From contig JAFCMP010000001.1 of the NCBI GenBank assembly GCA_017506865.1, positions 1,984,001 through 2,048,000 on the forward strand: 64,000 nt of DNA. The letters run 5' to 3'. This DNA comes from Tribonema minus (Eukaryota; Sar; Xanthophyceae; Tribonematales; Tribonemataceae). Position 1 is the first letter of the stretch; every line of letters begins with the position of its first letter. Positions 1 to 64,000 of the stretch are shown here, piece by piece. The translations under genes were made by a program, and so were the position numbers. The notes under the pieces are model-generated. The model did not search any database, was not told the origin of the DNA, and saw only the letters and a program-made list of their open reading frames with translations.

Positions 1-55
1 GCCCCGGCATCACGTCACCGCCATACGCAGCGCAAGTCAAGCGTCGGTGCGCACG

Positions 56-123
56 CCGGCTCACCGTCACACGAGAGTCGCGGCGCCGCTGTATCGCGCT
101 GAGCTCCAGGTCCTTGTGCATCA
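56..123 (-). repeat. Degraded copy of an exon 3' end with donor
   Basis: This repeats 176-242, the end of exon 2 of the minus-strand gene plus its GTGAG donor, with scattered mismatches. It lies in the following intron. Confidence 0.8.
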
Positions 124-179
124 CATAGCCGCGCCATATGCGGCGCAAGTCGCAACAGCCGCTGTGCATACCGGCTCAC

Positions 180-835
180 CGTCACATGCGAGTCATGGCG
201 GCGCTGTATCGCGCTGAGCTCCAGGTCCTTGTGCATCACCTCGCCCTGCAGCCGCGACACCTTGTCCATGAGCTCGTCTACTTTGGCGGCCACCGTGGCG
301 TCCGACAGCCCCTCTAGTATCTGCTTGCGGTATTCGTCGAAGATGTTGTCCTCGTCTTCCCACTCTCTGCATTATGGACGAGGGGCGTGCAACAGCAGGG
401 TGTCGTTCAGCGTGATCGAGGCTGCAGTAGTGTGAGTGTGCGCGACACCATTGTCGCCTTGTGGTAACTGGTACGACCCTTGATGTCACATTTGTCTTGC
501 ACCACACGAGATGCATCGCAGCATGTACCGCGACAACATCATTTCGCACACGTTGGGATTTTCGAGGTCTCCACTTGAACATTATTGATGTACAGCACAA
601 CTCACCCGTCGAAGCCCTCCAGCACAAAGTCTTCATCGTCGAACTCATCAAATTCTTCCTCTTCCTCTTCCCAGTCCTCGTCGTCATCGTCGTCGTCGTC
701 GTCCTGCATGTCCATGTCTTCGTGATCATGCTCATCTTCAGCTGCGACAACGGCGACGGCGCCGGCGACAGGCGAACGTACCAGCGCCGCCAGGAGCGCC
801 ACCGCAGCTAGAAGCGCAAGCCCCCGTAGTCTCAT
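180..835 (-). CDS. Secreted acidic coiled-coil protein, 5' part (paralogue of the gene at 931-10626)
   Basis: Two exons are visible, 835-606 and 366-180 (complement). The first ends in phase 2 at a GTGAG donor and the second starts after GCAG, so the phases match. The start at 835 opens a signal peptide (MRLRGLALLAAVALLAALV...) followed by a very acidic stretch with a run of eight Asp and six Glu. Exon 2 is helical and ends with MHKDLELSAIQRRHDSH, which matches MHKDVQLSAIGRRYDSQ in exon 2 of the divergent gene; intron position and phase are also the same. The two are therefore paralogues. The rest of this gene lies left of the window. By analogy with its partner it is probably an ER or secretory membrane protein with a lumenal coiled coil; the exact function is unknown. 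Confidence 0.75.
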
Positions 836-930: not shown

Positions 931-3900
931 ATGCAAGGCATGAGGGCGGAGCGGCTGGTGGTGCTGTCTGCGCTTCTGCTGGCCCTGCTGTGCCTGCGGC
1001 TGGCGCCCGTAGCAGGCCAGGAGGAGGAACAGGCCGCCGTCGCAGAAACGGAAAGCTTTGACGAAGCTGGCGGGGGTCTCGCAGCTGAATACACAGCACA
1101 GGATGAGGACGAAGACGAGGAGGATTGGGGGTACGTGGATCAGTGATGTGCGACATTGCATGCAGATTCATCGACAGGTCGAGCCTCCAAATCTTGCAGG
1201 ATCTTCATGGCAAATTTACCAGTCGTGTTGCACAACGGCTTACTGGGACATGTGGCCTGGCCACCGTAATTGCAATGGCGATGCGTTAGCAGCGCTTTCT
1301 CAGTTGCCTGTCAGCTTGCAGAATGCAGTACGATTGGCACTTCGAATTTCAACCATGCATGTACCGTGGATGCAAAGTACCAGGAAGGCCGCCTCACCCT
1401 GTTGCAGCAGGCTAGCCAAACTCTGAGATGATACGCGGTTCTTCAAAAGGTTTTTGCAGGCCACATGACTCTCTGGAACCCAGGGATCTAAATACGGTAA
1501 GCATGTTGAACATGACGCGGACGGTGCAGCACGGAGGTGACACGAGCAGACTTCACTGAAGTGCTAGATTTCTGAGTTTCTTCTTTCCTCATAAATGTGT
1601 GCGCCAATGCCGTCCGAGCAGGGACGATGACGAACGCTCCTGCTCCAATAGCTCCAACGCACGCACCTTGATCGTGCTCACCAAAGATGATACTGTTCAC
1701 ATTATTGTAACCAAGAGCTGTCCTCTCCCGCAACGATGCGCGCGCGACCACTCTAGGTACACTCCCTTGTCCTGAACTTTTGTTTGCTTCGACACTGCGG
1801 GCGCAGGCTCTTTAGGAATAGATATGACTTTCTCCCGCAATGTCTTGTGCGCAACCGCTGTACACTATGTACCCTGTTCTGAGTGTGGTGTTTCCCTTGA
1901 TGATGCGCGCGCGCGGCTCCTTTCCGAGCAGGGACGACGACGACCCCGCCAGCTCCGACGGCATCCGGCGCCACTTCCTGCAGGGCGCCACCGCGGCGAA
2001 TTCCAAGCTGCGGCTGAAGGAGGCGGTGCAGGAGCTGTGCCTGTGCCGCGCGGACGGCATGCACAAGGACGTGCAGCTCAGCGCCATCGGGCGGCGCTAC
2101 GACTCGCAGATCGCGGTGAGTCGGAGTCGCGAGACGCCGCTTCTCCCCCCCCCCTCCGTCTTGCACTGCTGAACTTTGTTTGTTTGTCGATGTTGTTTGA
2201 GTGACCTGCGCGCGCGGAGCGCCCGGATGAGCCGTGCTGAACGCGAGATTGAGCGCGCAATCAGCACTACAAATGGTTCGGCGGACGGCCGCAGCGCAGG
2301 CCGCGTGGCATTCCGCCTCCACGTCGCGGCGGACTCCGACAAAGGTCTGCAAAGGGAGGCGCGAGCGCACGGCGATCGCAGCGCAGCAGCGCTCCTCCAT
2401 GACTTCACAGTGGACAGCAAATTGAGGCTTCAACTCCATGCACACGCAGCTACGCACCTGTATTGCCCCCCCATCACAGGATCTCACTGACCACGACTCT
2501 GGACGTGGTGGATAGCAAACCTGAAGTCTAAGACTTTCACCGAACACCGCTCCATACCTACATACCCCTCCTGTCACAGGATCTCATCGACGAGTGCGGC
2601 GAGGAGCGAGAGGCGCACCAGCAGGAGGCGGCAGAGCTCAACAAGGCCGTAGCGGAGCTGAAGGAGAGCCGCGCCGCGTGCAGGGCGCAGCTGGAGCTGG
2701 TGGGCAATGAGGCGGAGAGCTGCCAGGCGGGGTTGCAGGTGAGTGAGTCACGAGTGAGTCACAAGTGACTCATGGGTGTCTTGTGAGTGACTTGCATAGT
2801 GACAGATGCTGAGCCCCGACTTGTTGCATGCACGGCAGCAAGGCAACGAGGCGGAGAGCTGCCAGGCGGGGCTGCTGGCGAGTGACTCGCAAGTGACTCA
2901 CAAGACACACAAGTGACTCATGAGTGAATCGTGAGTGACTCTTGCAGTGGCAGATGCTGAGCACCGACTTGTTTTCAGCGAGGCAGCGAGGCGGGGACTT
3001 ATTGTAGCGGGGCAGCCAAGCGGAGAGCTGCCAGGCACGGCCGCAGGTGAGTGACTTGCGGGTGACTCGTGTAGTGGCAAATGCTGAGCGCTAACTCTTT
3101 GTGCGCGCGGCAGCGAGGAGGCGCATGGGGTTGCCAGCGGGGCCACCAGTGAGTGACTCGCAAGGAACGCGCGAGTGACTCGCGTAGTGGCAGATGCTGA
3201 GCGCCGAGACATTGTCGTTGCTTGAACAGCACGCGCACCTACCATGCGCAGAGCCTCCGGGCGGTGTGCGGGCGAGCGAGTAACGAGTGACTCATTTACA
3301 GCAGATGCTGAGCACTGACTTGTCTCACATTCGGGGCTGCGATGCGCAGCGCTGCGGAGCGGCGATGCAGGCAAGTGACTCGCGCGCGGGGGCGAGTGAC
3401 GCGCATGCGGCAGATGCTGAGCGCTGACTCATTTCACACGCGGCAGCGAGGCGCGCAGCGAGGCGCGCAGCTGCCGGTCGGGGTGCCGCTGCAGGCACGC
3501 GCGCGCGCGCCGCAGCTGCTTAGCGCCGACTCTTGTAAGCGCCGCGTAATAACTAGATGCGTCACTCACTGTTGCTGCTGCTTGAGCGCTGTTGCGCAAA
3601 TGCGGACCGAGCGCGCTCGGTTGTTTGACAGTGCTCACACGCCTGGCGCCTGCGCGCGCTTGAACGTGTTTTGCCTGCAGGAGTCTGAAAAGCTGCAGGC
3701 GGGGCTGGAGCGGTGTGAGGCGGAGCTGGCGGTGGCGCGGGAGGGTGCGGAGCGCTGCGCATCGGAGGTAGAGGTATGCATGTATTTGGGTGTACCAATC
3801 CCTTTTGAGTATATGAGTAATAGCTCTCGATAAATGCTGCGAATCGCAGGCCACTGCCCCATAGGGTTGCGCAGGGGGATAGAAGGGCAGAAGAGTACCA

Positions 3901-6900: not shown

Positions 6901-9900
6901 CCCTCTCTGCCTGCGCGCGCATTCAGGCGTCGCTCGAGGCGACGCGCCGCGACCTGCTGGAGGCGTCGCAGCCCAAGGACGTGTCCCTCGGCACAGTCTT
7001 CGGCGATTTCGCGAGGTGAGCCCCCTGCGCTGCACCCACGCTGAGCGCTGCCAGCCAAACCCAGACTGTCAGTGCGTATGTACGTATGCGCGCAGCGGTG
7101 CTGCCAGCCGGCGTGCAGCGCCGGGCACGCATCGCAGCCCAAGGCCGTGTCCCTCGGCACAGTTTCCGGCGACTTCGCGAGGTGAGCCCCCCTGGACTGT
7201 ACGGGCTGGTAATTCGGTACCAAATCGAGGCAAACTCTGAATACTAAGTGCATAACTAACCAACTTAGGTACATCATGGCACGCTCAATTAGCTATTGAC
7301 TTAGCTGTGATCGGACCGCAGCCCCAAGTTTGTGTCGCTCGGCACAGTCTTCGGCGATTTCGCGAGGTGAGCCACTGGGCTGCGCGCACGCTGAGCGCTG
7401 CTAGCCAAACCCAGTCGGTCAGTGCGCATGTACGTCTTGTAATGCGCGCAGCGCGCGGCGGGCTAGCGTGTGCAGCGCCGGGCGGGGACGGCGGCATGCT
7501 CCGGTGCGCGGGCGTTTTTGCTACTTGTAGGCAGCGGCGCTTGCCCCCCTGGGCCCCTCCCCTGGGAGCCTCAGTGCGAGGGGGGTTTGAAGAGGGGAGT
7601 TGCGGCGGTTTCAAGGGATGGCAGCGCCGCGCCACCGAGCGCTGCGCAGAGTGGCACGTCACCTGCGGCTTGAAGTTGTCGAAGCAGGCCACAAATGGAC
7701 GGCCGGTCTGCAGCCCGTGCCGCGGCACTGGCACGCCAGGGTGAAGCGCCTCTTCTGCTTTGCAACTCGTCTGCAGAGGGTCGTTTACGCAGCGACGCAG
7801 TATGCACCACCTGATTTCGTGCTGCGTAGCTTGCCCCAGTCTTGAGATCTGATGAAAAGGCTGTGTAACTGCCTGCTTCCTGTCAGTCAACAACCCTGAC
7901 CCTATACTTTAAAAAGCACAACACGTGCAGACCTTGTTGTTATACAGCGCATCTCCCGGTCTTGCGTACACACACACACCTCCCTATAGACACGGTGGGT
8001 CTTATACCACAGCATGCGACGAGAGGGCGTTGTGAACAAAAGCGGTTCTCATTCTACACTCCGTGATTTTCGGCACCGCTGACTCATGTACCCCCCCCCC
8101 CCCACCCACCCACCCCCCTACGGCAGGCTGATGCTAGGTCTGTGGGCGGCGGCGCGTGCGGCGCCTGCCGCGGTGCTGAGCGCTGTTACAGAGATGCGGC
8201 GGCAGCTGCCGCTGCTCGATTTCATCGGCGACAAGGCGGTGGTGGCGCTGGCGCCGGCGTGGGCGGCGGTGGCGCCGCTGCGCACGAGGGTCGCGGCGGA
8301 GGCGGGCGCGGCGCGCAATTGGGGGGAGGCGCAGTACGCAGAGGTGCGTACGTACGTGGTTACCCGTGCGTGCTCATTCATATCTCATGAATTGTGTTCA
8401 GTCAGCGCATGAATGACGCGCGAGGGTCGCGGCGGAGGCGGGCGCGGCGCGCGATTGGAGGGAGGCGCAGTACGCAGAGGTGCGTGCGTGCTTAGCCGCG
8501 CGTGATTTTATGCGTCTCATTTATCGTGTTCATGGAATGTAATGTTCTCGCAACGCACGGCTGCGCTGCGCAAGCTGTGAGAACACCGCCAAAATACCGC
8601 CACTACTCAGTTGCGTATTCTCAAATTCTGTCATGGTCGCAAGCCGGCGCTGCAAGATGAACAGTACGTTTGAACACAGATGAAAGGGGGGAGGCGCTCT
8701 ATGCAGAGAGATGCGCTCTGCTGGTATCAGCCACTTCTTTGATTGCGACCCGGCGCTGCGAGATGAATGGTACGTCCAAACACGTCTATGGCGGCACCTG
8801 ACGCATTACGTGGGCAGAGTCTATTGCGGCCGCCACTCGCCATGGCAAACTTTTGGGCTGAGGGAGCAGCAGATCTGATTCGTTGCGTTGATGACTGTGA
8901 CGGCAAAGCTTGCAGCTGCGGCCGAAGGCGCCCATTTGCACAAGTAGCCTCTCGCAACGTGCGGCCGCGCGTCTCTGCGCCTCACCCCATGACGCTGCGC
9001 AGCATCGGCGGCGGCGGCAGCAGCAGCGCGGAGTGAGCGTCAGGGCGCACAACGCCGCAACCCCCTCTCTCCTCCGCGCCGGCAGTGCACCTACGTTTAA
9101 ACAGCCACGGCATGTGACCATGCACGGCCTCACTCACCGCTGCGCCGCCTCCGCCGCTGCTGCTGCTGCTGCTGCTGCTGCAGCTGCTGCTGCTGCCGCT
9201 GCTGGTACTGCATTAAATTTTTTTGCACTCAACAGAGAATCATACCCGGGGGCACACGCGCGCACCAAACGGCATTCACCGACAACCTCCGCGCTGCCGC
9301 CGCCGCCGTCCGTCACCCCGCGCCTCCCCCCCCCCCCTCGCTCGCACATGCGCAGCTCCTGCCGAAGGCGCTGGCGACATACGCATCTGCGGAGGCCTCG
9401 GGCCGCGACGCCTACGCGCGCGCTGTGGCGGCGGCGACGCCATATGTGCCCGAAGCGGAGGCGTACGCGGAGGCAGCGCTGCGCGCAATCGCGGCGGCGC
9501 TCCTGCTCACTGCGTCTCTGGCGGCGCTGACGCGTGCGGCGCGCGCGGCGTACTGCGTGTCCAAGTGGGCGTGCTTCCGGCTGCCGCTGCTGCCGTTCAT
9601 CTGGTGAGCGCTGCTGCCTGCTTTACGGCTGCGCGGCGCTGCTGCTGCCTGCTTCACGGCTGCGCGGGGCGCTGCTGCTGCCTGCTGTACGGCTGCGCGG
9701 CGCTTCGCGTGTGTCCCGCAGGGCCTGGGGCTGTGCGACGGAGGGCAGCAGTATGTAGCGGGTAGCTGCTGCCGCCGCTGCTGCTGGTGCTGCGCCCGCT
9801 GCCGCTGCAGCTGCTGGTGCTGTGCCTGCTGCCATAGGGCGTGCGCCGCAGACATCTGAGTTGAAGTTCGACGTTGAGCAGTGCGGTACTCTGCCTTGTA

Positions 9901-10626
9901 TCGACTCGGGTATGGTTCCCACTCTCTCGGCTGCTCTTTGCGTGCTGGCTGCAGACACTCTCAGCGCTGCGGCGCGCCGTGGCAGTGCGCAAGCCGTCCA
10001 CCGTCCAGGCAGCCACTCTTGCAAGTGCGCTTCTGAGCAGCAGCGCGCTGAACCACGCGGCCGATGCCTTGGTCACAATCTGCACTTGCACGGCGCAGCG
10101 CGGGTCACGTTGCGCAGCCTGCAGCGCAGCGGCAGCGCAGCGCAGTTTGTAACCGCCGCTGCTTCGACTCCGCTGCTGGCGCCTTCGACTTGTGACTCAC
10201 TGACTCTTTGACTCACTCATCATCACCCGCAGGCTGGGTCGGTTCGTCATCTTCCTCGTCCTGCGCGTCAGCGCCTTTGACTCGTGACTCACTCACTCTT
10301 TCACTCACTCATCGTCACCCTGCTGGCTGACTTGGGTCGTCATCTTCCTCGTCCTCCGCGTCAGCGCCTTTGACTCGTGACTCACTCAATCTTTCACTCA
10401 TTCATCGTCCCCCTGCAGGCTGTTGGTCATCTTCCTCGTCAGCGTCTTCGGCTTGTGACTCACTCACTCTTTCACTCACTCATCGTTACCGCGCAGGCTG
10501 GGTCGGTTCGTCATCTTCCTCGTCCTCCGCGTCAGCGGCGGCAGGCGGAGTCCCACGGCGACTGCGGGCGGCGGCAAGGCGCGCAAGCGCGGCAGCCGCA
10601 GCGACAGGCGGAAGAAGAACGAATGA
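931..10626 (+). CDS. ER-type membrane protein: signal peptide, acidic region, long coiled coil, membrane anchor, dilysine tail
   Basis: Exons: 931-1130, 1932-2115, 2580-2738, 3681-3773, 4745-4837, 5335-5436, 6151-6210, 6927-7015, 8127-8343, 9356-9603, 10497-10626. All have GT-AG borders and matching phases, giving about 524 aa; an in-frame ATG at 940 is an alternative start. Residues 1-29 form a signal peptide and 45-85 are acidic. About 130-300 are heptad-like coiled coil, including two consecutive 31-residue exons with EAELAVAREGAERC and EEKLAQAETDAES. Hydrophobic segments lie near 440-458 and 471-494 (ending PFIWLGRFVIFLVLRV). The basic tail ends DRRKKNE, a canonical KKxx signal for retrieval to the ER. 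The overall plan resembles plant secretory coiled-coil proteins with a C-terminal anchor, but no named family is certain. A further small exon near 5683-5715 is possible. Introns are full of exon-edge copies and transposon fragments. Confidence 0.82.
1611..1660 (+). repeat. Copy of an acceptor and exon 5' edge
   Basis: TCCGAGCAGGGACGATGACG matches the true acceptor and start of exon 2 at 1923-1942 (TCCGAGCAG then GGACGACGACG). It lies 320 bp upstream, inside intron 1. A similar copy of the exon 3 acceptor (TCACAGGATCTCA) lies at 2474-2486. Confidence 0.75.
2739..3545 (+). repeat. Intronic tandem array of exon-3 tail, donor and intron start
   Basis: About seven diverged units fill intron 3. 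The first, near 2838-2885, repeats GGCGGAGAGCTGCCAGGCGG from the end of exon 3. Later units keep GTGAGTGACTCGC-type donors, GTAGTGGCAGATGCTGAGCG and a CAGCGAGGC acceptor-like end. Unit length is roughly 90-120 bp. Confidence 0.8.
4145..4320 (+). mobile_element. Degenerate transposable-element fragment, copy A
   Basis: This stretch inside intron 4 matches 6280-6445 in inverted orientation. Both can encode RLTVTA followed about 14 residues later by HSLLA and then VQQ at a similar distance. The family is not recognised. An old dispersed element is the simplest reading. Confidence 0.6.
5576..5611 (-). mobile_element. Short relic of the repeat family seen at 12.8 and 57.4 kb
   Basis: ATTCTCGCTGAGGGCGCG followed by AAAAGCCCAG matches 57438-57467 almost base for base, and the complement of 12820-12850. 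It is a third, fragmentary copy in the same orientation as the 57-kb one. Confidence 0.6.
5683..5715 (+). other. Possible missed small exon of the coiled-coil gene
   Basis: One frame reads ALNEAAAQTESARL, which suits the surrounding coiled coil. It lies between exons 6 and 7, but no pair of splice sites keeps phase 0 cleanly. It may be a real alternative exon or a decayed copy. Confidence 0.3.
6280..6445 (-). mobile_element. Degenerate transposable-element fragment, copy B
   Basis: Inverted, diverged partner of 4145-4320; the complement shares GACGGTTACGGC and CACTTCTAGCA with copy A. It lies in intron 7 of the coiled-coil gene. Confidence 0.6.
7129..7372 (+). repeat. Two copies of the exon 8 tail with donor
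   Basis: The end of exon 8 (QPKDVSLGTVFGDFAR plus GTGAGCC at 7016) is repeated near 7137-7187 and 7320-7372. The copies read PKAVSLGTVSGDFAR and PKFVSLGTVFGDFAR, each followed by GTGAGCC. All three donors look usable. Confidence 0.88.
8410..8482 (+). repeat. Copy of the exon 9 tail with donor
   Basis: This repeats the last ~60 bp of exon 9 (8284-8343) and the GTGCGT donor, with one changed segment. It lies 70 bp downstream of the true exon end. Confidence 0.85.
10176..10545 (+). repeat. Tandem copies of the last-exon acceptor and 5' edge
   Basis: About four units of roughly 90-100 bp. Each holds CTCACTCACTCTTTCACTCA, then an acceptor-like CAG and GGTCGTCATCTTCCTCGTC or a close variant. The last unit carries the true acceptor (10496) and start of the final exon; the upstream ones are decayed copies inside the intron. 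Confidence 0.88.
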
Positions 10627-17400: not shown

Positions 17401-20400
17401 CTCCATCTGCGTGCAGAAGCTGCTGGCGAACCTGCGCGCGGACCACCGCGACGTCGAGGTGAGCACTCCCGCACCGGGTGTGCGTTGCCGCGCCGCGCGA
17501 CGCAGCGCGGACGGCGCAGCAGCGCGTGCGTGCGGCGCGATGATGTTTGCAGACGCACTCTGCGGTGGCCGGCGACCATGTGCCAACAAACCTGCGTGGG
17601 AGCTCACGTGATGTCGAGGTGCGCGCTGCCGCCGGGTGCCAACACAGCATTTTTGTGGGGTGGGGGCATGTAGTCTAGGTGCTTGAAGTACGCCTTCGGC
17701 TCGCTGCATGCGATGGCCATGAAGCAGGTGATGACAAATTGGTGTGCACTCCAGCTGCCGCGTCGCCGTGTGCGTTGCTGCACTGTGCGCTTGGGACTTT
17801 AAAGATACTCTGTCGTGTATGGTCAGTGGGGCCGGCCAGAAAGGTAGAGTCAACGCGCGCGCGCCGAAGCTGCTGCTGCCGCGCGCAGTCTCTGCCATGG
17901 CGTCAAACATGAGCACTGCCGCTCGCCGTTGTTCATTGGTCCACCCTCAGCGCATAAATGAGGGCGGTGTCAGTGGCGGAGCGCTGCTGAGCTCTGGTGT
18001 GATCGCAGGGCGGCATGCCCAAATTGCCACTCAGAAACGACAATGCACTCACAGCCCGCGTTTGGTAATGGCACCACTACGACTCGTCCTCGACTGTTCC
18101 ACACAAAACACGACGTGCTGCCGCATGCACCTGATGACGCCTGACAAGCTGACCGCCGCCGCCGCTTCCGCGGCCGCTGCTGCGCGCAGGTCCTGAAGCT
18201 GCACCACTACCTGAGCCCCGATGCAAACACGGCTGTCATGGACGCGGTACTGGACGCGCTCGCGAGCAACACCAACTGCCAGGCGCTGTACATGCAGAAC
18301 TTCAACTCAGGCGTCACCGACGACCAGATCGACGCCCTCGCGGCCATCCTGCGCACGCACGACAGGCTCTGGTGCCTCAACCTCGGCGAGCTGTACAAGG
18401 TGAGGCGCCAGGGGGGGGGTGTTGTACCCCAGTGATGCGGGTTGTACCCCAGTGATGCGGAAACGCTGATGGGAAGCTTCTGCTGGGAGCTGCACGACAC
18501 GCCTGCACATGTCCGCTCTCATTTTGTCATTCGCCACACTCTCTCTGTTTGAGACGCCCCCCCCCCCCCCCCCCCTCTCCCCTCCTTCCCTCCCCCCTTC
18601 ACACTGCGCTTATTACTTCAACAGGTGACACTCGACCGCTGGTGGAAGTTGTGCGAGGAGCTGGGCGGCACGCACGTCACGCACACGATCTCTCACTTTG
18701 TCTTTCCTGCACACTCTCTACTTTTGAGACGCCTTCACGCGATGAATCATGTGCCTGACCACCACACACACCCCCCTTGCGCGCACGCTTACTACTTACT
18801 ACTTCAACAGGTGACGCTGGACCGCTGGTGGAAGTTCTGCGAGGAGCTGCGCGGCACGCACGTGACGCACATGTACCTCAGCGAGCACGTGCTCACGGCG
18901 GACCTCAAGACGGCCATGCGCGACGCGATACGCGCCAACCGCGCCAAGCACGCGCTGCACAAGGACGTGGACAACCTCGCCGTCATCGAGCGCTGCACCA
19001 ACATGTGGTGGAACCCCATCAACGCGCGCGACCTGCAGGTGCGCGCGCACGCACACTCATATTTAGACGATATACATGTGTATATACATGGACCATGCGC
19101 CGTGCGCCATGCCCCTCGTCCACTGCTGCCGGCGCCGAGGCTCATAGGGAGATGGCATGTGGAGTGCTTCAGCGGACATGAAGCTGACATGTATGTGGTG
19201 GAGCCCCATCAACGCGCGCGACTTGCAGGTGCGCGCGCGCGCATACATGTAGACCATATACATGTATGTAATCATTAAGTCTCTGTACATAGAAGTATGG
19301 AAACGAATCAACAGATGGTAGAGTACTACAAGGTGTGGTTGGCCGCCAGTGCCTTCCACCAATGACCGCGGCCGCCGCTGCTGCGGTCATTGGCCACGAG
19401 TCAAACAGTGCCACCATATGTATTGCATGCAAAACGGCATGTCACCCCCGCAACGAGTGGTGGCAGCGCGCCGCTGTTGACCGCGCGCGCGCAATCTGCA
19501 TGTGTGTGCGCATTCCTCCCTTTGCACCGGAAAAGCTTGTTGCCTGCCGCCCATCGCAGTGCTGGGAGCGGCGGTGGCGTTGCCGGCGATGGCCTTTTCG
19601 GCTTTCATGCGCCTGTGGGCACGGAGCTCTTTCTGTTAGGGGTGGCGTGGGGGGGGGGGGTGGCGTTAAAGAGGGGGGGAGGCAGGGGCGCTCTCAGCTC
19701 ATACGTTGTCTGATGAGGACAAGGGCGGGAACGGCGCGTGCGCGCTGGCGCGATATCAGCAGATGCTCGCGCCCGTTCCCGCTGCGGTCCTCAGTGCCGC
19801 CACCGCTCCCTCCCACTCCCCATTCCTATGCTCAAAAGGTATACTCGACGACGAAGCGCCGTGAGTAGTAGACAAAGGTCCTGAGTAACCTCCGCTGCTC
19901 ACCCCCCCTTGCCCCCCCTCCACCGCCCACCGCGCGGCAGGTGGCCATGGTGCAGCGCGGCCTGTCGACGCGCGTGCGGCCGCGCGCGGACCCTGCCTCC
20001 AAGGCCGGCGGCGGCGGCAGCGGCGGCAGCGGCGGCGCAGCGCGCTTCGAGCCCTGCTCGCTGCACACCGACAAGAGCGCGGCCGTGCTCGCCGGCGCCG
20101 CCGCTGCGGCCATCGTGCTCAGCGGCGGCGCAGCCGTGGATCGCTGCGGCGGCGACGCGTGCCTCAGCAGTTTTGCTGCCGCCGATGGCCGCGGCGGCAG
20201 CGGTGATGGCGGCGGCGGCGGCGGCGACGGCGCTGGCTGCAAAGTCGAAGTCTTTGGCAGCAGCGTGGGCGCGTGCGGCGGCGGCGGCAGCAGCGGCATC
20301 AGCGGCGGCGACAGCGGCAGTGGCAGCTGCGGTGGCACCGTAGCCCAGAGCGGAGTCAACAACTACTGCTGCGGTGGCAACAGCAGCGCAGTGCGTGACC

Positions 20401-40400: not shown

Positions 40401-43400
40401 GGTAGGTACGGCAAGGATGAGCATCAGCCCAATGTTCGACGGAGGCAGGTACAAATGGCAAGGATGAGCGCAATGTTTGATGGAGGCAGGTAAGTACGGA
40501 GACGGAGGCAGATGCAGATGTAGAGCAGATGGCAGATGATGATAATGAGATGATGGACGGAAAGCAAGTGAATCGAATTGATTGATTTGATTGAGGACGC
40601 ACACACATATAAAGGAGCGTCGCTTGTTGTTCGGCAGGAAGTCTGGGGTCCTCCTAGCTTTGCACCTGGGCAGGTTCTGAATCAGGGGTGGCTTTGTGAG
40701 GCCAACGGCGGCGGTTTGAGCCGTGTGTTGAACGCCCGGTCCAGAACATGCGGACGTGGTGCCTGACAAACAAAGCGTCAGCGCTCAGCAGCACACGACG
40801 TTGAGAGCACCGGGCCCTTCTCTTCCGCGCCACACCGCCGCCGCCGCCGCCGCCCCGCCACCGCCGCCACGTCGCAGGGAGGAGCGCGTGCCGCGGCGGC
40901 GCGTGCGGCTGCCGGGCGACGCGCCGGCGCCGCTGCGTGCGGGCAACGCCGTCGACGTGGTGCGCGCCGGCGGCCGCTGCGCCGCCGGCGCCGTGCGGCG
41001 CGACAACGGCGACGGCACCGTGTACGTCGCGTTCAAGGATGGCGAAGTGGACTGGGCGGTGCCGCGCGCGCGCGCGCTGGGGCGGTGGGCGGCGTGCGGC
41101 GGCGGCGACGGCGCGGCGGGTGAGCGGGCTGCGCCATGCCTGTGGCCAACGCACAGCGCTCTATGCGATGCGCATAGCTACCGCCAAAAGGGTTGCAGCG
41201 GCGGCGGCGCTGCGGCAGCGGCGGCGGCGCCGGTGGGCGCGCACGACGCGTCCGTGGGGCGGCGTGGACGGAGCGATGCCCCGTCGCTGAGCGCTGGGGC
41301 TCGGGCACGGCAGGCGAGCTGACGCTGTGTGCAGGCGAGCTGACGCTGTGTGGGGCCCTCCGCGCCCCCACGCGCGCGCGCGCGTCACCGGAGGGTGAAT
41401 GTATCTGCGCGCCGGGCATGCCGATGTGTCTTGGCGTGCCGCATTGCGGCGCCGATTACGTGCGAGCTCTGTCCAGTGCGGATGCTCAGCTGACAGCTGA
41501 ACAAACACGCCCCGGCGCGAGATCGCAAACACGCCCCGGCGCGAGAGCGCTGTCGTGCACTCAGATTCTCTCGCCGCAGGCCTGCTGTAGGCAGAGGTAT
41601 GGTGTCTTGCAGGCGCCGACGCTGCCGTAGAGCCCGCTGCTACGTCTGCTGCTTGGCTGTTGTAAGTTAAGGTCGGGGATAGGGTCAGGGGTAGCCGTTG
41701 AACATGCAGGTCCAGGCAGTCCAGAAGTATGGTCCTTCTGCGTGCATCTGCAGAATATGCTTGCAGCCGGTAATCTCACTGTGTCCGCAATGGTCAAAAT
41801 CACAGCACCCGCATGACATGTGATGAGAGCTATCAAAGGAGTGTCACGCATGCAGTAATACTTTGTTCGCGAGCCAGTGAAATCGAGTGCCCCAGCTCCC
41901 CCCCCCCCCCCCCCTCTCTCGTGTGCAGAACCGAATGGGAGCAGCATCGCTCAAGGCGACACTGCTGGTGCCAGCGGCAACGGTGGCGGGCTGCACTGGA
42001 TTCACGCCATCGCTGCCGCGCAGCCCCCGCCCGCCGACACCAAGTGAGTCCACAGCGCTCAGCATCAGTGCTCAGCATCAGTGTGCTCGGTAATGTCGTC
42101 TGCGTCACGTGTTCTGGAAGGCAAAGCATCATGCTCAATATCGTCATGTGCATCTCGTTTCCTGGGAGGCAGAAGCGCCTGCTGCAGGCACCGCCAGGGG
42201 GCCCAGTCGGGAAATTTGCATCTAAACCTAAGGCTAGGGCCGCAGCGCTGCTGCACGGCAGCTTCGGCCTGCCGCGGCGCGGCGGCAGCGCGCTATTTGG
42301 GCTGTCGTTCGAACGCGAGCGTTGCACGTCGCAGCGGCAACGCCGAAACGAAGCTCGCCAAATGTATTTTCAGCATGACAGCACGGCTGGATGCGACCGC
42401 TCTCGCGCGACGCGGCGGCAGCGACAGGCCGGCGGCGCAGCCTGCGCGTGCGTGCGCGCACCACCCCGCTGCTGCTGCGGTGACTGCTGAGCGTCCGCTG
42501 CGCGCGGAGGCAGCCGTCGAAATGCGCGCACCGAGAGACCAGCCACGGCGCTCAGCAATGCGCCTGGCGCGCGTGGCAAAGCAGGCGGCCAGCTCCGTGC
42601 GCCGCTCTCTTCTTGGTCCCACGTGCCGCCGCTCTCTCGTCCCCGACGTGAGCACAGTGGTGCCAGCGGCCGCAGGGACCGCGTGCCAGCGGTGCACGGC
42701 GCCGGGGCTGCAGGTCAAAGTAGTGTGTACCTGCAACTGTTCTGCGCCCATCTGCAGCATCGCGAGTCGCCATGCCTGCTCCCCCCTCCCCCCCCCGGCC
42801 CGCTGCCACCTCACACACACACCACCCTCTAATCTGCGATACCTGCCTTACCCCCCCCCACACACACACACACTGCCCGCAGGCCCGCCATCGACAGCCC
42901 CCTCAGCCCGGGCAGCCCCTTCGGCGGCTCGCCGCTGCGCCCGACTTCCGCCGCCGCCGCGCTCTTCGCGGGATCCCCCGCCGCCGCTGCCTCCATCAAC
43001 TACTTGGCGCTGGCCGACACTGCCGCCGCCGCCGCCGCCGCCGCCGCCGCTGATAGCCTCACCCTCTCTGACACCGGCGGCGCCGGCGCGTTCGCGTTTT
43101 CGCCGTTGCCGCCGCGCCGCGCCGCTGCTGCCAGCGCTCCTGCCAGCGGCGCCGGCAGCAGCGCTGCCGCCGAGCCTGCCGCAGTGGCGGCGGCGGCTGT
43201 TGATGGCTGGGAGCAGTGGCGCATCAGCAGCAGCGGCGGCGGCGTCGGCGGCGTCGGCGGGGCCATTGGCGGCCACCGCAGAGTCAAGTCGCCGTCGACT
43301 GCGCCGGGTGCTGCTGAGCTCAACGCATTTGGAGCCGTGCCGCTGGCAGCGCTGGAGGCGAAGGCGACGCCTGCACCGGCGGCGGCGGTGCTGCCGGCGG

Positions 43401-46400
43401 CGCTCGCGGCGGCAGCCACGGCGGCGCCACCGAATGCCCCGGTGGCAGAGGCGAAAGTGGCAGCGGCAGCGGCGGCCGCGATCGCCACCTCAGGCGCGGA
43501 CATCGCTTATGCAGCAGCCAGACCGTTGTCGGCATCCCTGGTGGCGGCGGCGCTGCCAGTCGCAGCACCAGCGGCAGTGGCGATGGCATCAGCGCCGCCG
43601 GCATCGCTGGCGCTGCCGTCAGCTGCGGCAGCGGCGGCGCCGCCAGCTGCGACCACGACTGCGGCAGCAGCAGCGGCGCCGACAACTGCGGCAGCAGCGA
43701 CAACTGCAGCAGCGGCGGCGGCGGCGGTGGCGGCGGCGGCGCCGCCGCCTCAGGCAGCGGGTGCAGCCGGCAAGGGCGCCCCCGTTACAATTTCACCTCA
43801 GGCGGCGGCAGTTTCGCCATGCGCCGCTGGCGGCTCGTCGCTGTCGGCAGGCGTTTTGCCACGCGCAGCCGCCACTTCGCCGCGCAGCGCGGCCGCAGCG
43901 TTCTCCAGCTGGGGCGCGCGCGGCGGCAGCCCTCGGCTGACCAGCGGCTCGGCATCCAGCAGAGCAAAGGTGCGTGTGTCGCCCTTGAAGTAAACTTCGA
44001 AGTATGTTGAAGTTGATGCACGGAAGGGGGGCGCGCGTCGTGGGAGCGCTGCCACCGCCCATGTGCCGAGCATCAGTTTGAAGCGCGGTGATGCGCAGCA
44101 GCGCTCCACACAGCTTGGGCGCCGGCGGCCGGCCCGAGCGCGCGCGCGCGCGCGCGACAGAACATGCACGCTATCACCACTTTGAGCGCGCCGCGTCGCG
44201 CGACTTGCCGTCCGCGTACAGCGACGGTGCATCGTCGCCGCTGCATGCAGGCGCCTCCTGTGCACTTATCTTCAAGACAACCGCGCGCTCTGAGCCGTGC
44301 TGCGCCTGTGCTGCCGCCGCCGCGCAGGCACCCGCCGCCGCAGCGGCAGCGGCGCGCGCCGCCCCCGACCCCCCCGGGAGGAGGGACCCCGGGTGGGAGG
44401 ACGCGCGACGCGACGTGCAACGCCAGTACGCGCGTGAGGCCATGGAGCTGAGCGAGGAGGTGAGCATCGCTCAACGCTAACCCTAGCCCTAGGATGCTGG
44501 ATCCTGCCGCGCGCGTGTCTTTTATGCTGACTTTGATGGCCGATGAGGCCATGGAGCTGAGCGAGGAGGTAACAGTGCTCAGTCCTAACCCTAACCATAG
44601 GCTGCCAAAAAACTCGCTTCGGCGTGACGTGCAGCGCCAGTACGCGCGCGAGGCCATGGTTAGGGTTAGGGTTAGGGTTAGGGTTAGGGTTAGGGTTAGC
44701 AAGTAGCTGCGCGAGGAGGTAAAGCGCGCAGCCGTACCCCTAACGTCCTGCTGCTGGATCTCGCCGCGCGCGCGATTGACACGCCGGCAGGATTTCTTTC
44801 ATGGCTGATGATGGGGCCATGAAGGAGCTGAGCAAGGAGGTAACAGTGCTCAACCGTAACCCTAGCCGTAGGCTGCTGGATCTCGCTGCGCGCGCATCTG
44901 ACGCGCTGGCAGTTTTTTTCCAAGGCCGATGAGGCCATGGAGCTGAGCGAGGAGGTGACCACGCTCAACCCTGATTCTAGCCCTAGGCTGCTGTATCTCG
45001 CCGCGCGCGCGTTTGACCCGCTGGCAGGATTTTTTTCCATGGCCAATGAGGACGTTTTCCATGGCCAATGAGGACGTAGCTGAGCTGAGCGAGGAGGTTA
45101 CAGCGCTCATCCCTAACCGTAGCCCTAGGCCGCTGGATCTCGTTGCGCGCGCGTCCGATGCACTGACATGAAGTTTTGGTCATGGCCGATTTGCGCACAA
45201 TCCCTCTGGGGCACGGCAACACTTGCGCTTTTGTGATGCCACCTGTCCTCGCTGCCCGCGATCGCCTCGTAAATCTGCTCGCCTCACGTGCAAGCGGCGA
45301 GGCAAACCGCCCGCGTCAACGCCGTCTGTTTCGTGCGCGCACCCGACCGCGGCGGGCCTGCTCTCGTTTGCCTGTACAGCCCGCGGTTTGTGTGAAGGCA
45401 TTTATAGTGTCCGGTGCAGCTGCCAGCACGTGCGCACAAGGCCGGGCAAGCTCAGTGCCGGCAGAAGTCCCGCGCAGACGTCGCGAGTTTTTTTGTTTTG
45501 TTTTGCGTGAAGGAGGCGAAATGCTCCAGTTTTCCAGGATCCATTTCGCTCTGTCTCCATGCGCAGCGGAGCGCTGCGCTGATTCGTGCAACACCCCCTG
45601 CAGCGGGGCTCTAACCCTAATCCTACGGGCGAAGGGGTAGGGTTAGGGATAGCCCCTAACATCAATCGCGGCCACCGCCCCCACCTGTAGCGTTGACCCC
45701 CAGTTTTTGCGCGGCCTGTGCGAGAGGCCGCGAAGATGAGCAAGGGGGTGCTCCTCCCTGGCCACGTGTGCCGATTGCATATGCGTCGCTGCGCGTCACA
45801 ACAGACTGTATTCATTTGGTGGTAGTTGGCCACTATGACGGTATGTGTGATCTACGTTCGCACTCGCAGCGAATGCTGTTCCAGTCTGATCTTCAAGTTG
45901 AAGAAGCTAACCGTGCAGCGGCAGACTGCATCCTGCGGTAGACTGCCATTCTGCTTGCTGTCTGCAGCGCGAGTGATCGAGGGGGCTGCTCCGTGCGAGG
46001 CCTTACCATACCCCTAAATTTTGCTTTGTGCTTACCGCCCCATCACACACGCACCAGCGCGTGACTAGCACTTGCCTCTTTCATCGCTCCGCTGCGTGAT
46101 GACCCTGCAGGTGCGGCTGCTGAAGGCAAAGCTGGCGCAGCGCGAGGTGACATTTGAGGTATGCTCCAACATCATGTGCACGTACATGCGTGCTCTATTG
46201 GGCTCAAACCTTCACAGTACTGCAGCGGGAGTGCATCGTTCTCCGAAGTCGCCATACTGCAAAGGACACACATACGACTTCGATGTATGCGTCTGCAGTT
46301 TGCACCAACAGTAACTGGCGTTCCTGGATGAGCGGCGGCACGCTGAGCTGGTCCATGGTTTCGCCACAGGGACTTACGCCCTGCAAAACGCGCTACTGAG

Positions 46401-49400
46401 TGTTGACACGCCAGGATTTATTTGCCTGCTGCAGCCCATTACGTTGTAAGACGTGCTGTGAACTCTCTGTCTCTTTCAATTTCTTATCATCTGGACGGAG
46501 ACTCCGAGTTGTACTCTGAAGATGATCTCAGTGCTGCCCCACACCTCTTAGGTAATCGCATTCATGCGCCTGGTGCACACATGTGCGCCGCGCACGCTGC
46601 ACCTGCATTGATGTTCAGGCAGTGCGCTGAATACTTCCTTTTTTTCAAGTATCAGGCACTGTGCCGACTCACTGCTGCTGCTGCTGCCGCCACCGCCGTC
46701 GCTGCTGCCGCCGCTGCCACCGCCGCCGCCGTCTCTGCCGCCGCCGCTGCCGCCACCGCTGCCGCTACTGCCGCCGCCGCCGCTGCTGCCGCTGCTGAGC
46801 GCGGCAGGTGTCGCTGGCAGCGCGCGAGGCTGCGCTGCGCCACCGCGTCGAGCACGAGGCTGCAGAAGAGGTGCGTACGCAATTATCCACGACCAGTGCG
46901 CAGTGTACACAGGTGTCCTCAGTGCTCAGTCAATGAGCGTTGCACGGGGGCTCCAGCCAGGTCTCGCGCCGCGTCGGTGCCGCCAGCACCTTTCGACCTC
47001 GCTACTCAGTCCCTGCTGAACTGCAAACAATCTGCGAGTAGGCTGCGCTGATACGAAGTGCGCTGCGCCACTGCCTCAGAACGAGGCCGCAGAAGAGGTT
47101 CATACGCAGTTCACCGCGTATAGAGTACACAGGAGTCATCAACGCTCAGTAAATGAGCGTCGCCCTTGCAAGGACAGGGGCTCCAGTCAGGGTTTGCGCC
47201 GGACATGGCAGCCGTCGGCGCCGCCAGCAATTTCTGATCTTGCTTCTCAGTCCTCGATGAACTGGGCACGCTTTGCGAGTGGATCGTGCTGATGCGACGT
47301 TGACATAAGAGCCCGCTTCTGCCGCTGCACATGTACTTTTTAGTTTTCACTTCCAAATTCTTCTTAGTTTCGGAGCGGCATCACGTGCAGGCCTTGAAGT
47401 ACAAATGGAGTACTGCTGCTGACCCCAACCCAAACTCTAACCCTAACCCTAACCCTAACCCACATCAAAGCAAGCATTGAGGTACATCACATGCAAGCAC
47501 TGAAGTACAAAGGGGGTACTGCCGCTGGCCCAACTGCGACTGCAGCCTCCCACTCTGCGAACGTTTCATGGTGCCAGGGCCCCCACCCTCACCCTGAGTT
47601 TATCCCTTGAGAGCGCGATTCTTTCTCTAAAGTACTGGTTGGGTAGTTCTTTGTACATGAGTCTGTTTTGTCTTTATGATTGCTTGCTTATTCTGTTGCT
47701 GTGCTGAGCGCTGCAGCACTCTGTGCGTGCAGCAAGGGCAGTGCTCAGCACATCCGCACCCGCCACCGCTTGCGCAGGGTTCAGGCCAGAGGTCAACGTG
47801 CGAGCATTGCAGTCGGGGATAGGGTTGGGTCACGGTTAGGCCAGCCTGCACCTAAGGCCATGGCAGTTTTGTGTTGGCGTGCCCGGGGCGAGCACTGCCA
47901 TTACACGTCTCTGGATTTTCCTGTCACCAGTTGTGCCTGCAAACACCAACGCTCGCCTCTGCGCTCACCCCCCCTCCCCCCCCCGCAATGGTGGTTGTAA
48001 CGCCGCGTCCGTCGCTGCCGCGTTGTTGCAGATGGCGGAGGTGAAGGCGGCGGCGCTGCAGGAGCGCGTAGAGGCGGCAGCGCGCGCAGCCGCTGCAGAG
48101 GGCGCGCTGCAGGTGACTGCACTACTTACATTGCGCTGCTTGCCGCTCAATAATACATACTCCTGAAGTATGAATCAATAGGGAAAGTGCCTGAAAGTTG
48201 CGACTGCATCACGCTGCTTGTCCTATACTTGCGACTCAATGGGGAAGCGGCACGCGCAGCCGTTGCAGGTGAGTGCACCGCATTTGCGCTGCTTGTTGTT
48301 TCTACATACTTTGAAGTACATGCTTTCATAAATCAACGGGAAAGAGGCCCAGATTAGGAAAGAGGCTTGGAATCTGTGAACACTGCAGGAGCGCACAGGG
48401 GCCGCGGCGCGCGCAGCCGCTGCGGAGGGCGCGCAGCAGGTGACTGACCGTACTGCGCTGCTAGTTGTCACAACAGGTTTGAAGTCGTGAATCAATAGGA
48501 CAGAGGCCTAAACATTGTACTTCTACGAAGATGTGCGTGGAGTTTAAACTCGTGATTCAATAGGAAAGGGGCCTAAAATGTGTGTGAAGCTTTGCGTGGA
48601 GGCTTGGGTGCTTGTTGTTTTATACATGTGACCCAATAGAAGAGGCCTGAAAGCTGCTACTGCATCACGCTGCTTGTTATTCCATACACATGGTTCAATA
48701 GGAAAGAGGCCTAAAGTTTACTTAAGGATTTCGTGGAGGCTTGGGTGAAGCAGCTGCAGCGCCACTTGTTGCTTGACGTAGACCAACAAGACTGGGCACA
48801 GGAATGCAGCAGAGGTTATAGCTGGTAGGCGAGCATGTAGCTGTAATCTGAATGACGTTGTTACAAAACTCCAGTCAATCCACAATCTACAGAAGACCGA
48901 GTTCTTGACCTCCATGTTTTCTTACGGTTCAGCACCAAAGAGGAATGTATATAATCTGAAGGGACTGTAAAATTGGATATCAAAGATATTTGTATTTCCT
49001 TCCGGACAGTCCTGTAATTGTAATTCAGGATTGAAGAATTTACAGCACTGTCTGAAATTATTAATTATTAGAACATTCTCAATTAGTTCCTAATTTTTCG
49101 CGGCTATTTTTTAGCTTTGCGGGTGTATCATGAGAACTGCAAAGAACGTGCTGTAGCTTTTGATCTTCCAAAGCACTAATTTCACCTCACAAGTGTTTGA
49201 CTTAAACTCAATTCAATTTTCAAAATGCAAAATTTAATGGGCATCACGATCCACCAGATGCTATTGATGAATGATACTAGTATACCTAAAACAATGCATG
49301 GCACAAAAATGCGAATTAATTTAATCAAGCGGCAATCAGACGAGCATAAATCGTACTCTAATTATGACAACACTAGGAAGAGTCATAATGTATTTGATGA

Positions 49401-60565: not shown

Positions 60566-60803
60566 TGCGGCGGCACGTGGCTGCACTTGCTGGTCCTGCC
60601 TGCCTGATGCTGAACCCTGATCCCCCGTCGGTCCTTCTTGTCGTTGAAACTTCAAACGTGAAAAAAGTGGTGGCACGTTGGGAATTGGTCCTAGTTCCTA
60701 GGCGCTGGTGGTTGCACAAGAAGAACAGGAAACGTTGTGGTGCAGCAGCAAACAAGGCTGAGAGGGAAGCGAACGAAGCGTCTGCTGCGCAACGAAGAGC
60801 ACC
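60566..60803. promoter_or_regulatory. Shared region between divergent armadillo-repeat and SYS1 genes
   Basis: About 240 bp (or 127 bp if the earlier Met of the minus gene is used) separate the two starts. No specific site recognised. Confidence 0.4.
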
Positions 60804-62904
60804 ATGGCAGTTTTTGATGCGAAGCTGACTGTGATGCAGATAGTGGCCCTGCAGAGCTTTTACTATGTGGTGATGGGCGTGGTGCTGACGTGCTTCCGGA
60901 TCATATTTGGCACCAAGGTAAGAGGCACCGTCGATATGCACGTGTGTAACCTGGGCTCCAAAAAATCTATCTCAGAACCGGCAAGCAGGTGCCTCAGTAA
61001 TGCCTCGCCAAACCAGCACTCTTAAGCACTTATGTGCACCTTGTTACGCCGACATCAAATGCCCCAGTTGACCCCCTCTGGCTGTTGGCTGTTGGCTTTT
61101 GGGCATGCACTCCACTTGCCGGAGGATCAGCGCTGTGCCTCAAAGCAGCGCTGGTGTGTTATTTGCAGCTGCTCTGCAGACTCGCCTGTCGCCTGGTGCA
61201 TGATCCAACCGTACAAACTGAACACACGCATACATGCTGGGGTACACACTCAGACCGTCCGTCCCCCAAGGGCACTGTGTCATTGCGTCCCGCAGTGCTC
61301 ATCAGGACTGTCGGTCCTATCCTGCCTGCCGCTGACCGCCACCAATGCTGGGTGACCTAGCGTGAAGGCGCAAAACGCCGGTTAACATGCGTGCGCACAA
61401 CTGCGTGTACTCACCTATGCCCCCCCCCCCCCCCACTTTCCTCGCCCCGTTGCATGTGCAGCAATGGCGCTCTTCTCCCCACACTTAGTGTTGCACTCGA
61501 GCTTCAGTTAGGGTCAACGTCAGGCGGTGCGTCTGCTTGCACGCACGCACTTGACCTTCCAACCCCCCCCCCTCCCCTGTGTGCGCAGCTGTCGCTGTCC
61601 CTCACACGCACTAACTTCCGCGTCCCCCCCCTCCCCCCCCCCCCCCCAGCTGTCGCTGTCCCTCATGTTCTCCGCCGCGAACCTCTCCTTCGCGAGCGCG
61701 CCGGGCCTCACGGGCGTCTTTGCGACGCTCGTCACCGCGGCGCTGGGCGCGCTGCTGCTCGTGGTCATCGTCGAGAAGACCAAGCGCTGCCTCGACTTCA
61801 CCGCGACGCTGTTCCTCGTGCACGCCGCGCTCACGTGCGCGTTCGGCGGCGCGCCGCGGCGCTGGGAGTGGTACGTCGTACAGGTGCGCGCGCATACATA
61901 CTGTACGCTGTGTACGTGTGCTGGGAGTGTACGCTGTGTACGTGCGCTGGGAGTGTACGCTGTGTACGTGTGCTGGGAGTGGTACGTCGTCCAGGTGCGC
62001 GCGCATACATGCTGTACGCTCCCACAAGTATCTGCGAGCATGTGTGTACGTGTGCTGGGAGTGGTACGTCGTCCAGGTACGCGCGCATACGTGCCGTACG
62101 CTCACGTCGTTTATGGAGTGCCTGCAGTATGTGTGTACGTATATCGAGCGCGCGTAGTACGCTCTCGCGGCGTGTCCCTCACGTGCCCCGCGAGCGCATG
62201 TGCATATGTGTATCGATACGACAGCATACGTAGCTGCCGGCTGGGAGTGGTACGTCGTCCAGGTGCGCGCGCGTACATACCGTATGCTCCCACAGGTGTC
62301 TGCGAGCATGTGTGTACGTGTATCGATACGCCAGCATACGCAGCTGCCACGTACGCTCTCTCCGTGTTCCTGGAGTCCCCGCGAGAGCATGTGTGTACGT
62401 ACATGTATGTGCCAGCGCACCTAGCTTCCGCGCGCATGCAACGCATGCCGCCAGGTCGAGCAGCGACGCCTCTTGGCCCCCTCGCGCTGCCGCCACAAGC
62501 GGCGCCAGCGACATGCAAAGTCTTTATCTGCTGAGCACGGAGCGCTGACGCCAATGCGTGCCCCCCCCCCCCCCCCCCCGCGCCAGGGCTGCGCGCTCGT
62601 CATCATGGTGCTGCTCGGCGAGTTTCTGTGCGCGCGCAACGAGATGCGCGACATCCCCCTCTACACCCCCCTCAGCGTGACCCCCGCGTCCGCGTCCGCT
62701 GGCGCCGTGGCCGCCGCCAGCCGCGACATCGAAATGGGCCCGCGCAGCAGCGGCGGCGGCGGCGGCAGGGGCGGCGGCGGCGGCTGCGGGCTGTCGCCGA
62801 TCCACGAGCGCCGCTCGCCGCTTCGCGACCTCGTGGCGCCGCAGCAGCAGCAGCGCTCAGCCACGCTGCAGGCGCGCCTCGCGCTGTCGGAGCCGGACCC
62901 GTAG
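60804..62904 (+). CDS. SYS1: SYS1 Golgi trafficking membrane protein
   Basis: Exons 60804-60917, 61650-61883 and 62587-62904, all phase 0, give 221 aa. Four membrane segments are visible: VALQSFYYVVMGVVLTCFRI; TGVFATLVTAALGALLLVVI; DFTATLFLVHAALTCAF and the segment across the second junction (WYVVQ|GCALVIMVLLGEFLC). The family hallmarks are KRCLDFTAT, RRWEWYVV and LGEFLCARNEMRDIPL, matching QCLDFT, (W)EWW(V) and GEYLCMR-EL-EIPL of animal and fungal SYS1. SYS1 recruits the Arl3/ARFRP1 GTPase to the trans-Golgi. The family is usually about 155-200 aa; here a Gly/Ser-rich tail of about 75 residues with a Gln run follows the EIPL-equivalent. Introns contain copies of both edges of exon 2. Confidence 0.93.
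61584..61612 (+). repeat. Upstream copy of SYS1 exon 2 acceptor edge
   Basis: GCGCAGCTGTCGCTGTCCCT copies the true acceptor and first codons of exon 2 (CCAGCTGTCGCTGTCCCTCA at 61646-61665). Confidence 0.82.
61884..62330 (+). repeat. Array of SYS1 exon 2 tail copies with donor
   Basis: TGGGAGTGGTACGTCGTCCA followed by GGTGCGCGCGCATACAT recurs near 61975-62012, 62057-62093 and 62241-62280, with shorter pieces (GCTGGGAGTGTACGCTGTGT) between. All carry the CAG|GTGCGC or CAG|GTACGC donor. A second mixed unit (GTGTACGTATATCGA...) lies among them. Confidence 0.9.
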
Positions 62905-64000
62905 TCGCTGCCGTTGGGGCGTAATGGCTAACGTGCCGCACGCGCGTGCGCATGCGCGAGGTCGCCTCTGCAGCCTGCGAGCGCCTCTGCTGCCGCCGCT
63001 GCAGCCGCCGCTGTAGCCGCATTGACCGCTGCCGCCGCTGCAGCGATCAACATGGCGCTGCCGCCGCATGCTGCGAGTGCAGGCAGGTGCGCGCCGCTGC
63101 CGCTGCGGCGGCGGCCTTCCAGCCGCAGCTCCGCCGCTGCCTTGGTGCAGCGCTGCCGCAAGTGCTGGCGCCGCAGCATCGATCGTGTGCAGCGTGGCAG
63201 TCATGTTCTGAGCGCTGCTGTGACTTGATAGCCCCCATGGCTCAGCGCCGGCATGCAGCGCACAGCTGGTGCAGCAGGGATAGTACACAATCACAGAGAG
63301 GGGCGCCAGCAGCAGGCTGCTGCGGCCATCTACACTGCCGCTGCTGCAAGGCCGGCCCAGCAGTGCATGCCATGGCCGCGCTCGCAACGCTGTGCGGGCA
63401 TTGGTGCGCTGGTGCGCCAGCTAAGTGCACAAAGCTGCTAGGCTACCCTGCTAGGCTACCCGCGCACCCCTCTTCTGTGCAAGATGGCAAGCGGCAGTGG
63501 CGGCGGCAGTGTTCAGTGCCGGTGCCGCGGCCAAGTCATCGCTGCGCGGCAGCTGCGCAGTGCCCGCACTTCCGTTGGCGGCAGCGCGTCAGTGCTCATC
63601 AGCCGCCACCGCAGCTGTTTGCAGCACAGGCAGCGGCGCTAGCGGCGCATATGAGCTTGCCTTTGAGGCTGCTCTGGCGTGTTTGACTGTAGCGACATCC
63701 ATGTGACGGTAGGACACGGAGAAGGCCAATGTTGCGTGTGCTGCTGGGCTGTACGCCACTGTAGCATTGTGACTGATGCGTCGTTGGCCTGTGAGTGCAG
63801 CCTCGCGCTACTGTGGGGCTGGAGAACGAGCCTGCAGCAATTTCCCTGTCGGGTCACGCTTGACGGCGCTGTGTATGTGCGTGTTGGTGCGCGCGTGCGC
63901 TGACGCGCGCCCGCAAATGACAGCAGCAGCATGGGGAGTACCATAGAAGCTGGATGAGGCCTGTAGTTGTGCTCACAGATTGTATGGTGGCAAGCTGGCT
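62905..64000. other. Right end, no gene supported
   Basis: GC-rich with GCTGCCGC runs up to 63.7 kb. The open frames here (for example 62946-63686) look like composition effects; no splice or domain evidence. Confidence 0.5.

Follow-up and report, generated by a model that had tools for sequence, protein, structure and literature searches.

How do the introns of an alga come to hold copies of the edges of their own exons? The question is raised by a 64,000-nucleotide stretch of the Tribonema minus genome (contig JAFCMP010000001.1, positions 1,984,001 to 2,048,000; hereafter "the window"), in which the DNA following an exon often contains copies of the exon tail together with its splice donor, and the DNA preceding an exon contains copies of the acceptor together with the exon head. 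Such copies are termed echoes here. A first-pass annotation of the window had offered three interpretations of the pattern: growth of introns by duplication, birth of new introns through duplication of AG|GT segments, and maintenance of the copies as alternative or decoy splice sites. Our analysis upholds intron growth by local duplication and speaks against both intron birth and maintained donors. Very probably, the echoes are products of recurrent short tandem duplications, which arise genome-wide, are filtered by selection on the exons and leave spare copies that decay neutrally.

Sequence sample and gene models

The window represents 64 kb of a 158-Mb, 554-contig genome, with a GC content of approximately 61%. 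The analysed DNA amounts to 314 kb and comprises the window with two flanking 10-kb stretches (84 kb) as well as 230 kb in 23 further 10-kb stretches from elsewhere in this genome. These 314 kb correspond to 0.2% of the 158 Mb and form the basis of any "genome-scale" statement, and every test is internal to this one genome. Exons were predicted by a home-made, self-trained gene finder based on a hidden Markov model, which yielded 62 genes with 358 exons and recovered CAG|GTGAG-like donors and CAG acceptors. Six proteins from the window or its flanks were scanned against Pfam; three gave matches above the cut-offs (EDR2_C, cytochrome b5 and SYS1), one gave a CBS match below the cut-off and two were without match. 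Tested exons had a coding score of at least 15, a length of at least 60 bp and a distance of at least 2.05 kb from the sequence end. Following removal of low-complexity queries, the remaining 60-bp queries were searched by local alignment against 1 kb of flanking DNA.

Exon tails are echoed downstream, exon heads upstream

In the entire sample, at a score of at least 25, exon tails were echoed downstream in 20/90 cases, compared to 1/90 upstream and 0/90 in shuffled sequence, while exon heads were echoed upstream in 12/96 cases, compared to 1/96 downstream and 0/96 in shuffled sequence. Exon middles gave 1/76 downstream and 0/76 upstream hits. A lower threshold of at least 22 yields the following counts for the three parts of the sample:

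Window proper: tails downstream 11/35, wrong direction 0/35; heads upstream 4/37, wrong direction 1/37, DNA 1-2 kb upstream 3/37; exon middles 0/30 and 2/30.
Two flanks: tails 2/7 in both directions; heads 2/6, wrong direction 0/6.
Other 23 loci: tails 8/48, wrong direction 1/48; heads 7/53, wrong direction 2/53, reverse-complement 2/53, reversed 1/53; exon middles 1/43 and 0/43.

Controls at this threshold are near zero but not all zero, as shown by heads in the wrong direction (1/37 and 2/53), the window heads compared with DNA 1-2 kb upstream (3/37) and the flank tails in the wrong direction (2/7). The directional rule put forward in the first-pass annotation is thereby demonstrated, and the same annotation had counted at least eight introns with exon-edge echoes, where we find 15 edges in the window proper. 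The copies are often multiple, as had been claimed (up to 6), and usually include the splice site. The pattern also occurs elsewhere in the genome: within the 0.2% that was checked, echoes are present in 10/19 other loci having a testable edge, at a frequency of about one edge in six or seven. The window is richer in echoes than the rest of the sample, and the effect extends beyond it. Finally, copies of exon edges are far commoner than copies of exon middles, a comparison which the annotation had named as its refutation test. Since any tandem duplication under exon selection must copy edges and not middles, this comparison is unable to separate the models, and the excess of edge copies is evidence neither for intron birth nor for targeting of duplications to splice junctions. 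The echo sites and arrays of the window are as follows (window positions):

7..245, minus strand: tail and donor echoes, three copies, of exon 180-366 (donor after 180); the array enters the left flank
1570..1971, plus strand: head copy upstream of exon 1932-2115, weak (95 bp, 68%) and not among the window's 4 counted head echoes
2702..3532, plus strand: echo array with tail and donor of exon 2580-2738; several copies were called exons by the gene finder
6927..7483, plus strand: two tail and donor echoes, with periods of 166 and 351, of the exon that ends at 7015
8281..8532, plus strand: tail and donor echo (93%, period 136) of the exon that ends at 8343
10168..10537, plus strand: three upstream acceptor and head echoes of exon 10497-10626
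18464..18880, plus strand: upstream acceptor and head echo of exon 18811-19038 (period 186)
18912..19275, plus strand: tail and donor echo of the same exon, 18811-19038 (period 190)
25077..25722, plus strand: four tail and donor echoes of the exon ending at 25147
27472..28007, plus strand: exon 27714-27833 with a head echo upstream (period 157) and a tail echo downstream (period 151)
35204..35667, minus strand: three upstream acceptor and head echoes of the cytochrome-b5 domain exon 35114-35274
44406..45190, plus strand: five or six tail and donor echoes of the exon ending at 44459; (GGTTAG)7 at 44658-44699 splits one copy
46831..47300, plus strand: a single tandem copy with a period of 227, comprising tail and donor of the exon that ends at 46870
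48056..48747, plus strand: tail and donor echoes of the exon ending at 48112, plus copies of intron-only DNA
61861..62430, plus strand: tail and donor echoes that occupy most of the intron after the SYS1 exon 61650-61883
39150..39318, unstranded: tandem array classed as lying within an intron, without exon edge (period 82)
40254..40502, unstranded: tandem array classed as lying within an intron, without exon edge (period 137)
47379..47531, unstranded: tandem pair classed as lying within an intron (period 106), its copies separated by a CCCTAA block

The echoes belong to local tandem duplications

The copies are local direct repeats. Offsets of 60-600 bp are almost confined to direct hits, where they account for 182/287 local matches, versus 6/78 among inverted hits. 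Of the 85 arrays that remained after low-complexity filtering, the window plus flanks contain 32 and the other loci 53. Among the 45 single-pair arrays, the aligned length lies within 20% of the offset in 20, which is the mark of a head-to-tail duplication, and exceeds it further in 4. Tandem geometry is thus directly visible, and so are arrays away from exon edges: 33 arrays touch an edge, 18 lie in intron interiors, 24 outside gene models and 10 inside exons. The period is divisible by 3 in 7/10 exonic arrays versus 29/75 others, although the exonic set is small and consists in part of compositionally biased coding sequence. In-frame tandem duplications within predicted exons are found in two of the 10-kb stretches, at L013 2515-3274 and at L027 1609-2257 and 6715-7256, with periods of 375, 129 and multiples of 3; the copies in L013 are 97% identical, and this duplication is therefore recent. 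Minisatellites likewise are tandem arrays of degenerate units. In contrast to these, many arrays described here consist of just two diverged copies, one of which is often pinned to a coding exon edge.

The spare copies decay as neutral DNA

Decay was measured on 60 echo copies, from which the splice-consensus positions were excluded. Mismatches amount to 381/2764 on the exon side and 478/2167 on the intron side, giving a corrected intron/exon ratio of 1.72 with a bootstrap interval of 1.44-2.09, which is too narrow because copies within one array are not independent. The ratio is near 2, the value that a frozen exon copy and drift of everything else would produce, and hence the copies decay as neutral DNA. 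Mismatches at codon positions 1, 2 and 3 number 97/912, 115/925 and 169/927, respectively; we take positions 1 and 2 probably to report the single drifting copy, and the excess at position 3 to be likely silent change in the exon. A net gap that breaks the frame is present in the exon part of 22/60 copies.

A model of recurrent duplication and exon selection

The following sequence of events would account for these patterns. Short local tandem duplications would arise all over the genome, with units of mostly 80-300 bp that are sometimes repeated into arrays. Inside coding exons, they would survive mainly if in frame. Where a duplication spans a donor, splicing at the first copy would leave the mRNA whole, and the second exon tail with its GT would remain in the intron. 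Where it spans an acceptor, splicing at the last copy would leave the mRNA whole, and the earlier copy would remain upstream. The spare copies would then decay neutrally; introns would lengthen without new ones arising and without splice sites being held in reserve. Since a spare copy is harmless where it follows a donor or precedes an acceptor, this model would yield the two echo directions and the excess of edges over middles; copies of exon middles would be absent from introns, because a tandem duplication cannot reach the intron without including an edge.

By analogy, the duplications may stem from DNA breaks whose overhangs are filled in before the ends are joined. For nickase-induced breaks, small tandem duplications through end-joining repair of filled-in overhangs have been reported (PMC8355091), a case that resembles the present one in its short head-to-tail copies; here, in contrast, units reach at least 300 bp and recur into arrays, and breaks and enzymes are presumed. 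Such repair depends on Ku, CST and Pol alpha-primase and should leave young junctions with little or no microhomology. The two youngest duplications share approximately 1 base at the junction, as judged by eye in these two cases only. Internal gene duplication, attributed to Gao and Lynch (2009), reportedly involves segments duplicated in tandem together with their splice sites. An intron-exon-spanning tandem duplication is reported for a potato RdRp gene, in a study that also mentions an 83-bp duplication within an intron (PMC4974935). There too, the duplicated segments contain splice sites, but this work and that on internal gene duplication focus on new introns or exons, whereas in T. minus the copies are skipped and introns only lengthened.

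Interstitial TTAGGG/CCCTAA pieces form a further component of this sequence, with 37 loci of at least 2 units in the 314 kb. They are located at the following sites:

Window 27535-27891, 28080-28115, 44658-44699 and 47422-47461: telomere-like pieces
Other loci L003, L004, L005, L007, L009, L011, L012, L014, L019, L021 and L025: telomere-like pieces

Arrays contain 13 of the 37 telomere-like loci, versus a random mean of 6.95 (P=0.006), an excess partly explained by the fact that pieces inside an array are multiplied along with it. The intervals of duplication junctions contain 3/37, versus 0.92 at random (P=0.06, not significant).

Spare splice sites, intron birth and mobile elements

If the copies were kept as alternative or decoy splice sites, their consensus should stand out from its surroundings. 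Echo donors retain the G in 40/41 and the T in 31/41 cases, the latter within the range of neighbouring sites, and 10/41 are without GT. Echo acceptors retain the A and the G in 18/19 cases each, similar to adjacent exon sites and slightly above upstream intron sites. Although the acceptor figures and the 25/41 echo donors that still score like real donors favour such a role, the unremarkable retention of the donor T, the neutral decay with broken frames, and copy periods that ignore the frame (20/23/17 modulo 3) make it very unlikely and lend no support to the proposed retention of donor copies. Occasional use of echo donors is possible in view of the donor-like scores. The Rogers model, in which an AGGT segment duplicated in tandem gives rise to an intron, has even less to commend it. 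Tandem duplications spanning AG|GT exist here, and the two junctions of an intron show gapped similarity in 21/262 predicted introns at a score of at least 20 versus 0.4 in the control, cases which are probably echoes mis-called as exons. However, in-register similarity between donor and acceptor junctions (score of at least 10) occurs in 0/262 predicted introns, where unrelated junctions give 1.05. Recent births of this kind are contradicted in this sample; old ones would be invisible, and overall we consider it extremely improbable that the echoes mark intron birth. The likeness to AGGT intron gain (PMC3443670) lies in a duplicated segment that contains AG|GT, and the difference is that no intron tested here is built from the duplicate. 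Least probable of all, with almost no chance of being correct, is the notion that the echoes are copies of an introner (a mobile intron-making element) or of another dispersed repeat. In its favour, 25 pairs among 147 introns share pieces, and a piece of about 125 bp at window 19296-19419 is found at approximately 40 genome places among the matches listed. Against this, the shared pieces of about 20-145 bp are parts of introns, with likeness of the whole intron in none of the 147; the piece at 19296 is not an exon edge; and echoes are local, as exon tails compared with DNA 1-2 kb away at a score of at least 22 match in 0/90 cases downstream and 1/90 upstream.

The more serious competitor of untargeted duplication is a duplication process targeted to splice junctions, e.g., through transcription or splicing intermediates, in which the exon edges are hot spots rather than places of survival. 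In its bold form, duplication would favour units of approximately 100-190 bp across the exon-intron border, perhaps in the course of transcription or splicing, and edges would drive intron growth. Several observations count in favour of targeting and thus against random duplication filtered by exon selection. Among the genic non-exonic arrays, 33/51 touch an edge, versus a geometric expectation of 0.29-0.33. This expectation rises to about 0.50 if edge copies are assumed to remain detectable about twice as long, one copy being frozen; even with this assumed factor, the window plus flanks lie above expectation (20/27, p=0.012). Furthermore, the place that the junction occupies within the unit departs slightly from that in simulated random duplications (Kolmogorov-Smirnov p=0.02), falling beyond two thirds of the unit in 3/33 cases versus 31% in the simulation. 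The untargeted model is also weakened on other grounds: the exons are computational predictions, some coding use of the copies would likewise be expected to produce a surplus of mismatches at codon position 3, and 21/45 single-pair arrays align over less than 80% of their offset. On the other side, the other loci (13/24) agree with random duplication once the detection factor is applied (p=0.69; p=0.048 if it is omitted), so that targeting is not needed outside the window, and the window is the very place where the pattern was first noticed. Arrays without an edge are common, both in intron interiors and outside gene models, and the array classes are blurred by undetected exons and by echoes called exons. 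Both the targeting of duplications to junctions and its bold form therefore appear unlikely, and recurrent untargeted duplication followed by exon selection and neutral decay remains the preferred explanation.

Individual genes and intron length

Two genes of the light-harvesting complex illustrate the process. One gene (L030 on contig C1) carries two upstream echoes of an exon head, which differs from the nearer echo at 5/85 positions, from the other echo at 3/46 and from the exon head of the paralog L029 at 13/84. Self-comparison of L029 revealed no array like that of L030. Because the head is closer to its echoes than to the paralog, and L029 is without array, the echoes are younger than the split of the two genes; an echo-bearing gene thus stands beside an echo-less relative. 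A light-harvesting protein best matches fucoxanthin chlorophyll a/c proteins, and the organism is probably an alga with a red-type plastid, judging by this similarity, which led us to discard the green-alga affinity (Haematococcus) at first suggested by GC content and TTAGGG repeats; a second light-harvesting protein matches LHCI chains first, followed by cryptophyte-type and similar names. Light-harvesting exons score identically on contigs C296 and C490, and on C70 and C489, which suggests that these pairs are uncollapsed haplotypes or recent duplicates.

Homology hints at the splice sites that are likely in use. In the SYS1 gene, use of the first donor gives a domain match of 86.0 bits in one stretch, and the first echo donor gives 78.9 bits in two stretches, with the downstream acceptor picked by eye; the other two echo donors shift the frame. 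The first donor would accordingly seem the one in service.

Introns between confident exons contain arrays in 49/147 cases. Their median length is 942 bp with arrays (n=49) versus 428 bp without (n=98), and arrays constitute 41% of the sequence of array-bearing introns. Longer introns offer more room for arrays, and the difference in length is an association as well as an effect; with this proviso, it supports the earlier suggestion that introns are growing by this route.

Other features of the window

The piece at 19296-19419 is 80-87% identical to its relatives, which occur on both strands, and may represent a short mobile element; neither ARAGORN nor Rfam detects an RNA in it. The same programs found a single RNA gene in the window, a tRNA-Ile (anticodon TAT) at 58422-58499 on the minus strand. 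A GC-rich, GCN-like coding stretch at 62738-62790 matches many genome places and is probably low-complexity coding sequence. A search of the genome for other copies of the SYS1 stretch of the window gave no long match besides the stretch itself (40 of 144 candidates scored), and the search with a second window stretch gave no long match among 39 scored of 2718 candidates (the window itself was not among the matches listed); haplotype copies may thus exist.

Implications

The process described here is of a known kind; its density is notable, as known from this genome alone, and no description of exon-edge echoes this dense appeared among the titles and opening lines of abstracts in the literature listings. 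Echoes provide a countable record of intron lengthening. Because every echo sets a copy that decays freely beside an exon copy under constraint, the duplication can be dated and neutral change quantified within the same gene. If the density holds genome-wide, the alga would be a good system to study why introns grow, and how splicing skips near-perfect copies of its own sites.

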